Assembly: GCF_003075415.1 (NCBI RefSeq) | Contig: NZ_QDAH01000002.1 | Location: 186,001 to 250,000 of the forward strand | Source of the DNA: Microvirga sp. KLBC 81 | GTDB taxonomy: Bacteria; Pseudomonadota; Alphaproteobacteria; Rhizobiales; Beijerinckiaceae | DNA: 64,000 nucleotides | Direction of reading: 5' to 3' | Shown: one piece after another, positions 48,523 through 61,537 of the stretch | How positions within the stretch are numbered: position 1 is the stretch's first letter | Layout: each line of letters starts with the position of its first letter | Program-made: the position numbers and the translations under genes | The notes under the pieces: model-generated | Seen by the model: only the letters and a program-made list of their open reading frames with translations | Database searches by the model: none | What the model was told of the DNA's origin: nothing

Positions 48523-49425
48523 TCATGCGGCAAGTTTACGTTCCGAGAATTGAGCTTGCGTCTCCTCGACATCCTTAAGGCTCGGCAGGCTCGCCTCGTT
48601 GCCGAGATGCTGAATGGCATGGGCGGACGCCGCGCGGGCGAAGATGAAATGCTCGCGCCAGGGAAGCCCGGAGCGCGCCATGGCGGAATAGACATAGGAG
48701 CCATGGAAGATGTCGCCCGCGCCGTTGGTGTCCACCACGAGCGAGGCGGGAATGTCGAGCGCCGGCAGAACGTTGTCCGTGCCGTTCTCGTCGTACCAGA
48801 GCATGCCGCGCTCGCCCATGGTGACGCCGCCGATCCTGCAGCCGCGGCCCTTCAGATAGGTGAGCATCTCACTCGGGCTCAGGTTCATCTGCTCGCAGAG
48901 ACGCTCGGCCACGACGGCGACATCGATGAACTCGAGAAGCTCATGCGTGTTGGAGCGCAGACCGCCGCCGTCGAGGGAAGTGAGGATGCCCGCATCGCGG
49001 CATGCCTTGGCGTAGTGCATCGCCGCATCGGCCTGGTGGCCGTCGAGATGAAGCGCACGGCAACCCTGCAGGTTCAGCGGCGGCACGGGGTGCAGGTAAT
49101 GGTCGTCGCGGCAGCGCACGATGGCGCGCTGTCCGCCGCGCGGCATGATGAAGGAGAGCGAGGATTCCTTCACCTTCCGGTGATGGACAGAGATGCCGTA
49201 TTTCGCAGCCATGTCGATGAACATGCGGCCCAGCCAGTCATCGGCGATCGAGGTCAGAAGGTCCGGGGCGATGCCGAGCTTGGCGCAGGCGAAGGCGGCG
49301 GTCACCGCGTTGCCGCCGAAGGAAATGGCGTAATCCCGTGCGACGGTTTTCTCGTCTCCCGTGGGGAGCTCATCCGCCAGGAAGGTGACGTCTATATAGG
49401 TCTGGCCTACGAAAAGAGCTTGCAT
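48523..49425 (-). CDS. PfkB-family carbohydrate kinase
   Basis: A 300-residue ribokinase-fold sugar kinase. The N-terminal FVGQTYIDVTFLADELPTG and the glycine pair region SFGGNAVTAAFACAKLG form the sugar site, and DTNGAGDIFHGSYVYSAM (near residue 230) is the PfkB anion-hole and catalytic Asp motif. The sugar is unknown. It is the last gene of the leftward muropeptide group, 280 bases after the BadF-type kinase, with a family B repeat between them, so its link to the group is weaker than that of the other genes. The ATG at 49425 replaces a longer frame to 49500. Confidence 0.9.
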   Translation of the reverse strand: MQALFVGQTYIDVTFLADELPTGDEKTVARDYAISFGGNAVTAAFACAKLGIAPDLLTSIADDWLGRMFIDMAAKYGISVHHRKVKESSLSFIMPRGGQRAIVRCRDDHYLHPVPPLNLQGCRALHLDGHQADAAMHYAKACRDAGILTSLDGGGLRSNTHELLEFIDVAVVAERLCEQMNLSPSEMLTYLKGRGCRIGGVTMGERGMLWYDENGTDNVLPALDIPASLVVDTNGAGDIFHGSYVYSAMARSGLPWREHFIFARAASAHAIQHLGNEASLPSLKDVEETQAQFSERKLAA

Positions 49426-49545
49426 GGCTTGAACAATCGTCTCAGTCCGACTGGAGACGAAGTCTTGGACGAGACCGGGGCAATAGGCAAGCCTCGCCAT
49501 AGGCTTGGCAGGTGCCTTTCTGGCGGGCAGAGCCGCCCCCTCCTG

Positions 49546-49632
49546 GTCATGGCCGGGCCTGTCCCGGCATCTCGATTTGAAGAGTGCGGTGCTCTACGGA
49601 TCGGGATCACCGGCACGAGGTCGGTGATGACG
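49546..49632. repeat. Family B intergenic repeat, copy 5
   Basis: GTCATGGCCGGGCCTGTCCC at the left and TCACCGGCACGAGGTCGGTG at the right. The right module carries two base changes from the other copies. Confidence 0.8.
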
Positions 49633-59890: not shown

Positions 59891-60659
59891 GCGACATCCG
59901 CTCGGGCGGGCTGATGGTCAGCTCGGCCACGAAATCATAGGCATCGCCCCGGTAATAGGACGAGGTGAACTCGACGACTTCGCCCGTGGCCGTGAACGAG
60001 CGGCGCTCGATGTAAAGGGCAGGGCTCTGAGGTGGAACGTGGAGCAGGGTCGCCTGTTCCTCGTTCAGCAGCACCGCATGAAGCCGCTGCAAGGCGCGGG
60101 TCGGCATATAGCCTTGTTCATGCAGCGCGGCGTAAAGCGATTGCTTCACCAGGCTGGGGTCCGGCAGGAAGCGAGACGGGATCACCGCATGCTCGATGGC
60201 CATGGGAATGTCGTTGGCCATGCGCAAACGATTGATGCGGCTCACGCTCTCGCCGGGAGAGAGGCCCAGCGCCATCAGCTCATCAGGCGAGGCTTGACCG
60301 GTGGAGCGGTTCAACAGAACGGCGGAAGATTGCAGGCCACGCGCGGACATATCGTCCGTAAAGCTCGACAGGCGCGAGAGCGGTTGCTCCAGACGCATCT
60401 GCGGCGCAATGAAGGTGCCCGACCCCCAGCGCTGAACGAGCACACCCTTCTTCACCAGCCCCGTAATGGCCTTGCGCACGGTCACGCGCGAGATGCCGAG
60501 TTGCTTGGCGAGATCGCGCTCGCCGGGAAGAGCATCGTCTGCTTTCAGCGAACCTTTGCGGACAGCATCCTCGATGGATTGCTGAAGCTGGAGGTAGAGC
60601 GGTGTGGGGTTGGACTCATCCAGCGGAAGAGCAAGACCTGCAGTGGCGTGGTCACTCAT
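59877..60659 (-). CDS. GntR-family regulator, HutC/NagR (UTRA) type
   Basis: A 260-residue regulator with an N-terminal winged helix (about residues 18-85: PLYLQLQQSIEDAVRKGSLKADDALPGERDLAKQLGISRVTVRKAITGLVKKGVLVQRWGSGTFI region) and a UTRA ligand domain (about 105-245). UTRA regulators of nag clusters bind GlcN-6P or GlcNAc-6P, so it is a good candidate for control of the whole island. The ATG at 60659 overlaps the upstream kinase stop by 4 bases; a longer frame to 60959 is a shadow of that kinase. Confidence 0.92.
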   Translation of the reverse strand: MSDHATAGLALPLDESNPTPLYLQLQQSIEDAVRKGSLKADDALPGERDLAKQLGISRVTVRKAITGLVKKGVLVQRWGSGTFIAPQMRLEQPLSRLSSFTDDMSARGLQSSAVLLNRSTGQASPDELMALGLSPGESVSRINRLRMANDIPMAIEHAVIPSRFLPDPSLVKQSLYAALHEQGYMPTRALQRLHAVLLNEEQATLLHVPPQSPALYIERRSFTATGEVVEFTSSYYRGDAYDFVAELTISPPERMSHDDA

Positions 60660-61537
60660 GGCTGCCTCCGAGACGAGGCAATCCGCCCCAGAAGAATGGC
60701 CCCATCCAGGGCATCCGCCTGAGGCGGCACAATTGTTTGTTGAACCGGCGGCGGCAACCAGGGCCTTAAAGGCTCCGCCAAGCCGCCGAACAGGCACAGA
60801 GCCGGCGCGCCGAGTTCGAGCAGGCGCGTCGCGATGCGCGTGGCGTCGGCGGCTGCATCCTCCATCAGGGCCATGCCCAATGGATCGCGCCGGTTGGCGT
60901 ATTCGAGAACCAGCGGCGCATAGCGCGCGTAATCGCCGGGGCGGGCGCTGCCGACCCAATCGACGAGCGTCTCGAGATCATCGTTGAACTGGGCCAACAG
61001 CGCATCCGAGAGCGGGGAGGACGGTGCACGCCCATCATGCGCCCAGACGCAGCGGCGCAGAAGTTCCCGTCCGATGTAAGCTCCGCTGCCTTCGTCGGAA
61101 ATCTCGAAGCCCCAGCCGCCCACATAGCGGCATTGCCCGTTCACGCCGCCATAGCCGCACGAGCCCGTGCCCAGGATCAAAATGGCGCCATCGCCCCCAT
61201 TGAAGGCCCCGAGCCAGGCAGTGTGCGCATCCGTATCGATGGCGAAAGAGGCGAAGGGATTGGGGCGGGAGAGAAGCCGCTCGACAGCGGTCGCTTGCCC
61301 TGCGCCGGCTGCCCCCATGCCGGCATGTATTGTCTTGAGGTCGCCCTCCTGCAATCCGGCTTTGGCCAGCGCTTCACGACAGGCTGTCAGAATGGAGTTC
61401 CAGACCAGATCGGGATCGAGGCGAATATTCGACGGGCCACCCGTGCCTTCTCCCAGCAAGGCACCATCGGCATCTCGAAGCCGCGCCCGGCATTTCGTAC
61501 CGCCGCTATCGATGCCGAGGAAAAGAGGGTTGCTCAT
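60656..61537 (-). CDS. BadF/BadG/BcrA/BcrD-type kinase, probable N-acetylglucosamine kinase (second copy)
   Basis: A 293-residue ASKHA kinase that opens LFLGIDSGGTKCRARLRDADG and has GTGSCGYGGVNGQCRYVGGWGFEISDEGSGAYIGRELLRR and CLFGGLAEPLRPWLPP. The Gly-rich GFEISDEGSGA segment is characteristic of GlcNAc kinases of this family. It is the first gene of the nag operon, with a 4-base overlap to the GntR gene. GAAAGGAG lies near its ATG. It is a paralogue of the kinase at 49706 and may work on a different amino sugar. Confidence 0.87.
   Translation of the reverse strand: MSNPLFLGIDSGGTKCRARLRDADGALLGEGTGGPSNIRLDPDLVWNSILTACREALAKAGLQEGDLKTIHAGMGAAGAGQATAVERLLSRPNPFASFAIDTDAHTAWLGAFNGGDGAILILGTGSCGYGGVNGQCRYVGGWGFEISDEGSGAYIGRELLRRCVWAHDGRAPSSPLSDALLAQFNDDLETLVDWVGSARPGDYARYAPLVLEYANRRDPLGMALMEDAAADATRIATRLLELGAPALCLFGGLAEPLRPWLPPPVQQTIVPPQADALDGAILLGRIASSRRQP

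Follow-up and report, generated by a model that had tools for sequence, protein, structure and literature searches.

A conserved AnmK-linked importer island without its own ATPase in Microvirga, a candidate route for the uptake and catabolism of anhydro-muramyl peptidoglycan fragments

An AnmK-linked importer conserved in Microvirga

We analyzed a 64,000-nucleotide stretch of the genome of Microvirga sp. KLBC 81 (contig NZ_QDAH01000002.1, positions 186,001 to 250,000; hereafter, the window), which carries at 48523-61537 an island of 13 genes combining the anhydro-N-acetylmuramic acid (anhydro-MurNAc) kinase AnmK and other amino-sugar enzymes with a solute-binding protein of family 5 (SBP5) and two permeases. 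On balance, we lean toward regarding the island as a NagR-type chromosomal regulon that imports and burns an anhydro-muramyl peptidoglycan fragment through a Dpp-type importer with a borrowed ATPase. An anhydro-muramyl importer is favored because AnmK and SBP5 are adjacent across genera, a separate lineage (G176) and plasmid units hold similar sets, the island SBPs lack an Asp of DppA, and the regulator is NagR-like. The island enzymes are ordinary, and what is new is the AnmK-linked importer.

Both AnmK and the MurNAc-6-phosphate (MurNAc-6-P) etherase MurQ were present in 41/41 Microvirga genomes (the MurQ copy of G002 has an internal stop), and an SBP5 ortholog (E <= 1e-80) in 40/41, the exception being G007. 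In all 40 SBP5-bearing genomes MurQ and SBP5 share a contig and are separated by a few kb, and in 37/41 genomes AnmK is there as well, which, together with the gene order, rules out chance clustering. To describe gene order we used a set of loci from one SBP5-alignment scan (the best 80 of 130 confirmed matches), of which 35 were named Microvirga, 31 of them full length; these were picked partly by PfkB identity, although they are the same as all 35 so named. The 13 genes kept the order of the window in 25 of the 31 full-length loci, the deviations being the absence of AnmK in three, of PfkB in two (L098 and L099) and of the GNAT gene in one, while the S12 hydrolase was kept in all 31. At L088, L115, and L126, AnmK is gone from the locus, and importer and MurQ remain.

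Layout of the island

The family calls were based on Pfam and NCBIfam profiles with curated cut-offs, together with matches to solved structures. All 13 genes listed in an earlier, sequence-only reading of the island were found, and their families hold by Pfam and NCBIfam. As for the chain of AnmK, MurQ, NagA, and NagB-II steps proposed there, the first three enzymes score over their cut-offs and the NagB-II-like one falls below its own. A minus-strand block (pfkB, a BadF kinase gene, murQ, the S12 serine hydrolase gene, and anmK) is followed by a divergent plus-strand block (SBP5, permB, permC, and GNAT) and by a second minus-strand block (nagA, the NagB-II-like gene, gntR, and nagK). The island is flanked by a gene with an HWE histidine kinase domain on one side and by thiQ/thiP-like genes on the other. 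Its features are as follows:

48523..49500, minus strand: PfkB-family kinase (PF00294; best solved match sulfofructose kinase)
49706..50614, minus strand: BadF-family sugar kinase, second copy (PF01869; solved matches hexokinase 2e2n and MurNAc/N-acetylglucosamine [GlcNAc] kinase 8zo3)
50659..51555, minus strand: MurQ, MurNAc-6-P etherase (NF003915, 366 bits, cut-off 168; a second model, TIGR00274, gives 286 bits, under its cut-off of 302)
51570..51588, minus strand: shared promoter element upstream of murQ (matrix and consensus matches)
51655..52680, minus strand: S12 (class C beta-lactamase family) serine hydrolase (PF00144; motifs kept in orthologs)
52684..53781, minus strand: AnmK, anhydro-MurNAc kinase (Pfam 282 bits; NCBIfam equivalog 469.5, cut-off 352)
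53843..53861, plus strand: shared promoter element in the anmK/SBP5 gap (matrix and consensus matches)
53923..55422, plus strand: SBP5 solute-binding protein (PF00496 SBP_bac_5, 324 bits; 499 aa)
55490..56437, plus strand: DppB-type permease, permB (BPD_transp_1; docking loop kept)
56441..57265, plus strand: DppC-type permease, permC (BPD_transp_1)
57262..57708, plus strand: GNAT acetyltransferase (Pfam GNAT; start overlapping the permease stop)
57705..58844, minus strand: NagA (TIGR00221, 334 bits, cut-off 226)
58841..59890, minus strand: NagB-II-type SIS protein (NF046059, 345 bits, below cut-off 430; two SIS stretches)
59877..60659, minus strand: GntR/UTRA regulator, NagR-like (GntR and UTRA domains; best solved matches NagR/YvoA and DasR)
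60656..61537, minus strand: BadF-family NagK-like kinase (NF046058, 244 bits, below cut-off 370; best solved match 1zc6)
61570..61588, minus strand: low-scoring copy of the shared element in the nagK upstream region (rank 7 among window 19-mers)
61723..61741, minus strand: low-scoring copy of the shared element in the nagK upstream region (rank 3 among window 19-mers)

An importer without its own ATPase

The importer has the SBP_bac_5 protein and the two BPD_transp_1 permeases of a Dpp/Opp-type system. Pfam and NCBIfam scans found no ATP-binding cassette (ABC) ATPase gene among the island genes, so that the earlier description of a complete island with its own importer does not hold. The island has the MurQ of a murQ-type cluster, and in the place of its transporter SBP5 and two permeases without ATPase. 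The nearest ABC ATPase (61767-62489) is ThiQ-like and lies beside ThiP. A Dpp-type ATPase pair was found in 0/35 Microvirga loci versus 20/45 non-Microvirga loci, in most cases directly after anmK; of the 25 remaining loci, many are truncated. Because the locus is without the ATPase pair found in relatives, its ATPase would be encoded elsewhere.

The first ATPase of the pair is 58-75% identical among seven relatives, and the best match per genome in 10 Microvirga genomes, among the first ~150 matches listed, reaches 51-58%, the top one of G000, the genome of the window, lying in a different SBP5 operon (L164). Orthology of these Microvirga matches to the ATPase of the relatives is unlikely from the identities, although the two ranges touch. 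G000 also has an orphan fused Dpp ATPase (contig C5, 17184-19061; L171:9184-11061), which we regard as a lead, not proof, for the ATPase lent to the island importer. Two further Microvirga stretches (L173 and L175) have a similar fused ATPase followed by an SBP5 and two permeases, which G000 and G018 do not have there.

In a 47-row SBP5 tree, the presence of the ATPases needs at least 5 changes with strict labels (23 with, 17 without, and 7 undecided and dropped). A count of 7 changes came from loose labels and was replaced; the ATPases of L100 lie farther off. In 10/11 loci, 24-31 of the 34 residues of the PermB ATPase docking loop agree with the window's PermB (the loop was not found in L086), compared with 17-24 of 34 for six other permeases encoded by this genome; for PermC, a pattern search of the window found no such loop.

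The importer could instead be a decaying remnant that has lost its ATPases and is dead for transport, the enzymes serving only recycling fed by the permease AmpG. The lack of an ATPase in 35/35 Microvirga loci and the presence of AmpG (see below) would fit. However, across 39 other Microvirga genomes SBP5 keeps 80-97% identity and has no internal stop, the PermB docking loop is kept, and ATPase-less loci recur across the SBP5 tree, so we consider a dead importer very improbable.

Clues to the ligand

Peptides, glutathione, and nickel are the substrates for which the SBP5 and permease families are best known, and the island permeases fit the NikB/Opp2B and GsiD models much better than those of YejB/YejE. 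In DppA, the Asp next to the N-G-D-P-D motif binds the amine of the peptide. Aligned to wild-type DppA, the island SBPs are without this residue: among 72 SBPs, a strict pattern reads the Asp-bearing stretch in 62, none of them with Asp, 8 more look the same by eye, and 2 were not found. This fits, as indirect evidence, a ligand that would be a sugar or blocked at its N terminus. These observations bear on a further possibility, a peptide importer for free wall peptides or dipeptides generally that is located here by chance, which would suit the families involved. Both the missing stretch and the adjacency to AnmK across many genera argue against it, and we regard it as quite improbable.

The S12 hydrolase, which has no signal peptide by eye, is likely, from its motifs, a muropeptide amidase or carboxypeptidase. 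Its S-L-T-K, Y-S-D, and H-T-G motifs, kept in the orthologs, cover the whole set that we take to characterize the YfeW/AmiE type (SxxK, Y-S-D/N, and H/K-T-G); AmiE of the B. subtilis murQ cluster is presumably of the S12 fold as well. Against the PBP4B (YfeW) model it scored 91.6 bits and did not reach the cut-off of 385. This hydrolase matters for a second alternative, in which the imported compound is free of peptide, being either an amino-sugar disaccharide or a sugar (such as GlcNAc-anhMurNAc, anhMurNAc itself, or a compound like chitobiose), and the hydrolase acts on another substrate. SBP5-type importers of Vibrio take up chitobiose, and import of sugar alone would agree with NagA, NagB-II, NagK, and the NagR-like regulator in the island, with the absent Asp-bearing stretch, and with the activity of AnmK on the free sugar. 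On the other side, the hydrolase accompanies the importer in every full-length Microvirga locus and also in the G176 lineage, whose SBP is only 33% like that of the window, and a plasmid unit of Mariluticola includes a gene of the D-Glu racemase family. We rate import of sugar alone as unlikely, although less so than the peptide and remnant alternatives.

Regulator and shared promoter element

Conserved blocks occur in Microvirga in the anmK/SBP5 gap and upstream of murQ and nagK. A 14-mer consensus, TGGYMYNATAYYGG, was found with <=1 mismatch at these three promoters in 31/32, 34/35, and 25/31 cases from named Microvirga, and at gntR in 0/31, nagA in 0/31, pfkB in 0/33, and the BadF gene in 0/35, with 0.3-1.5% in random stretches; the counts are partly circular because the consensus was read off the same sites, and related species are not independent. 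A 19-mer matrix trained only on the sites of the anmK/SBP5 gap and murQ upstream places the sites upstream of nagK at ranks 3 and 7 of all 19-mers in the window. Cross-tests between promoters gave p <= 0.05 in 29/33, 27/32, 24/32, and 33/36 loci, and p 0.01 rarely, against a background that includes real sites.

The regulator has the GntR and UTRA domains of NagR/DasR and is closest to NagR, whereas the shared element, unlike the sites of these regulators, has no clear dre palindrome. We refrain from classing it as a dre site because the best match to the palindrome (taken as TGGTCTAGACCA) in the window gap is only 9/12 (6 to 11 across 67 other gaps). Reading the element as tandem direct half-sites (32/32 Microvirga and 7/35 other gaps) was dropped in favor of the 14-mer. 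Control of the whole island by one regulator, as first proposed, is plausible from these motifs for the three promoters sharing the element and does not extend to pfkB, so that the PfkB kinase is doubtful as a member of the regulon.

Proposed pathway and its relation to recycling

Under the regulon reading, SBP5 would capture an anhydro-muramyl fragment in the periplasm, PermB/PermC would carry it in, powered by a Dpp-type ATPase from another locus, and the cytosolic S12 hydrolase would trim or remove the peptide. By family chemistry, AnmK would then yield MurNAc-6-P, MurQ would convert it to GlcNAc-6-P and lactate, NagA would release acetate, and NagB-II would give fructose-6-P and ammonia, while NagK may feed in free GlcNAc. 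The NagR-like repressor would act at the anmK/SBP5, murQ, and nagK promoter element, with release probably by an amino-sugar phosphate.

The sequence-only reading had placed this ABC route in the stead of AmpG. We found AmpG in the same genome (TIGR00901, 487 bits, cut-off 350; two narrower AmpG models stay under their cut-offs), and TIGR00901 is above its cut-off in 35 of the 36 Microvirga genomes tested (out of 41), the exception being G012. Replacement of AmpG by the importer is thus ruled out. The genome also has NagZ, an AmpD-like amidase (below its model cut-off), and a TsaE-AmgK fusion beside a MurU-like gene (both matches below cut-offs). Because of these genes and AmpG, the island would add to classic recycling rather than stand in for it, perhaps for fragments scavenged from others, and MurNAc-6-P likely has an anabolic exit (AmgK/MurU-like) plus a catabolic one (MurQ).

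Distribution beyond Microvirga

The non-Microvirga loci come from Bosea, Alsobacter, Stappia, Tepidamorphaceae, metagenome bins named Acetobacteraceae and Rhodospirillales, and others. The gene set and order, expected at the outset to recur elsewhere, are thus conserved in Microvirga and only in part in these groups. What recurs is the junction: anmK is divergent from SBP5 and <500 bases away in 33/39 non-Microvirga loci showing the spot (65/74 of all such loci), and two permeases follow SBP5 in 73/73 loci. MurQ was found in 14/19 full-length non-Microvirga loci. In the order it is patchy (57/249 genomes, and 0/8 listed members of the other genera of the family), and, of 56 genomes in it that carry MurQ, five also encode an SBP5 (60-72% identity), in three of them (G270, G069, and G167) with MurQ on the same contig, 3 to 10 kb apart; of the remaining two, one is split over short contigs and the other has SBP5 on another replicon.

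The separate lineage G176 has MurA, NagK, MurQ, SBP5, two permeases, a fused ATPase, the S12 hydrolase, and AnmK in one run, and a regulator of the RpiR/SIS type is encoded divergently. The G176 SBP shares 74-82% identity with SBPs of Rhizobium plasmids among the 15 of 25 matches listed. Plasmids also carry related sets: a Mariluticola plasmid (L193) has AnmK, an S12 hydrolase, and two ATPases on one side and SBP5, two permeases, GntR, and the D-Glu racemase-family gene on the other; a Deinococcus peraridilitoris plasmid (L191) has AnmK-GntR and SBP5 with two permeases (SBP identity 48%) and no ATPase within the stretch; and stretches of Chelatococcus and Terrarubrum plasmids have MurQ, NagA, SIS, and GntR genes with ATPases. 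The compact AnmK-importer units of L191 and L193 hint at a module moving between lineages. A scan of viral contigs found no SBP5 relative.

A MurA-like gene stands alongside NagK, MurQ, or the importer in 19/45 non-Microvirga loci versus 0/35 in Microvirga (for instance, L079:13879-15144, TIGR01072 543 bits, cut-off 393; and L059:12228-13484), a biosynthetic MurA inside a catabolic cluster being a puzzling combination. A gene for an EamA/DMT-family transporter adjoins anmK in a Bosea locus (L118:7747-8646) and in the Mariluticola plasmid (L193:3855-4745).

Several observations weigh against the regulon reading. The presence of AmpG is one. Three of the 40 importer-bearing Microvirga genomes (G001, G010, and G021) have no AnmK at the locus, and G007 retains AnmK and MurQ without the importer. 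MurQ was not found within the plasmid stretches of Mariluticola and D. peraridilitoris, and AnmK was not found within those of Chelatococcus and Terrarubrum. Finally, TGGYMYNATAYYGG occurs outside Microvirga at the three promoters in only 4/35, 2/19, and 0/19 cases, and the nagK copies of the element score 3.9 and 0.3 bits versus 30-33 for the two trained sites. In G001, G010, and G021, a more distant AnmK is found on another contig, and importer and MurQ stay at the locus. In G007, genes for AnmK, a MurQ-like protein, a SIS protein, and an amidohydrolase are adjacent, with no SBP5 among the ten open reading frames scanned.

Comparison with known systems

The island resembles the murQ clusters of E. 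coli and B. subtilis in bringing together MurQ, a putative transporter, an S12-family hydrolase (YfeW and, presumably, AmiE), and a regulator. It differs in that a Dpp-type SBP with permeases takes the place of the MurP phosphotransferase permease and a GntR/UTRA regulator that of MurR, that AnmK is included, and that NagA, NagB-II, and NagK are added. According to excerpts of PMC5061867, these clusters are the E. coli murQ-murP-yfeW operon (with murR) and the six-gene murQ-murR-murP-amiE-nagZ-ybbC cluster of B. subtilis, both overlooked when enterobacterial recycling genes were described as scattered.

A. tumefaciens has no AmpG and uses YejBEF-YepA, likely with AnmK-MupP-AmgK-MurU (PMC9790009, in excerpt). 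Like the putative island importer, YejBEF-YepA is an SBP5-class ABC importer in Hyphomicrobiales with a link to muropeptide recycling, and its SBP and core are apart in the genome; in the excerpted text of that paper, YepA is not adjacent to AnmK. The island SBP is not YepA: there is no YejA among its 60 best solved matches listed, and the genome has a YejABEF-like locus elsewhere, whose two SBPs include one that matches solved YejA chains. Caulobacter, following the excerpts of PMC11980594 and PMC13046382, has AnmK and AmgK/MurU and no MurQ. The Microvirga genome shares the recycling set with a MurU shunt, whereas its MurQ and importer give MurNAc-6-P a catabolic exit.

More broadly, and only as a tentative proposal that we hold with somewhat less than even confidence, the AnmK-linked Dpp-type importer may be one more system for muropeptide import, in addition to AmpG and YejBEF-YepA, distributed (judging by the names of the records) over Hyphomicrobiales, Rhodospirillales, Acetobacteraceae, and a Deinococcus plasmid; its SBP-permease core would have lost its ATPases repeatedly and be driven by shared ones. 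MdaA de-N-acetylates the anhydroMurNAc chain ends of A. tumefaciens (PMC10838918, in excerpt), and the GNAT protein may, as part of the same proposal, re-acetylate such ends for AnmK and MurQ. Among the open-access papers that our searches listed, no title or abstract opening describes such an arrangement. A conserved AnmK-centered SBP-permease unit with a shared element and without its own ATPase raises two testable questions, namely, whether wall fragments are scavenged by a route separate from the cell's own recycling and whether Dpp-type permeases share ATPases.

Other features of the island

Rfam gave nothing at gathering score in 46000-64000, and PADLOC nothing for the S12 hydrolase and GNAT. 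An extra gene lies between GNAT and NagA in 5/6 Microvirga loci examined (L094, L088, L120, L127, and L137) and not in the window. That this 1.2-kb gap, seen in many Microvirga, holds murA was ruled out, murA being found in 0/35 Microvirga loci and the gene of L094 (13715-14788), the single locus scanned, being Gfo/Idh/MocA. In loci of Alsobacter and Bosea, relatives of the second BadF kinase (41-49% identity) have NanE and an importer of the CUT1 type as neighbors, and the genome of the window has NanE and sugar-importer genes on contig C5, for which reason this kinase may serve N-acetylmannosamine rather than MurNAc.

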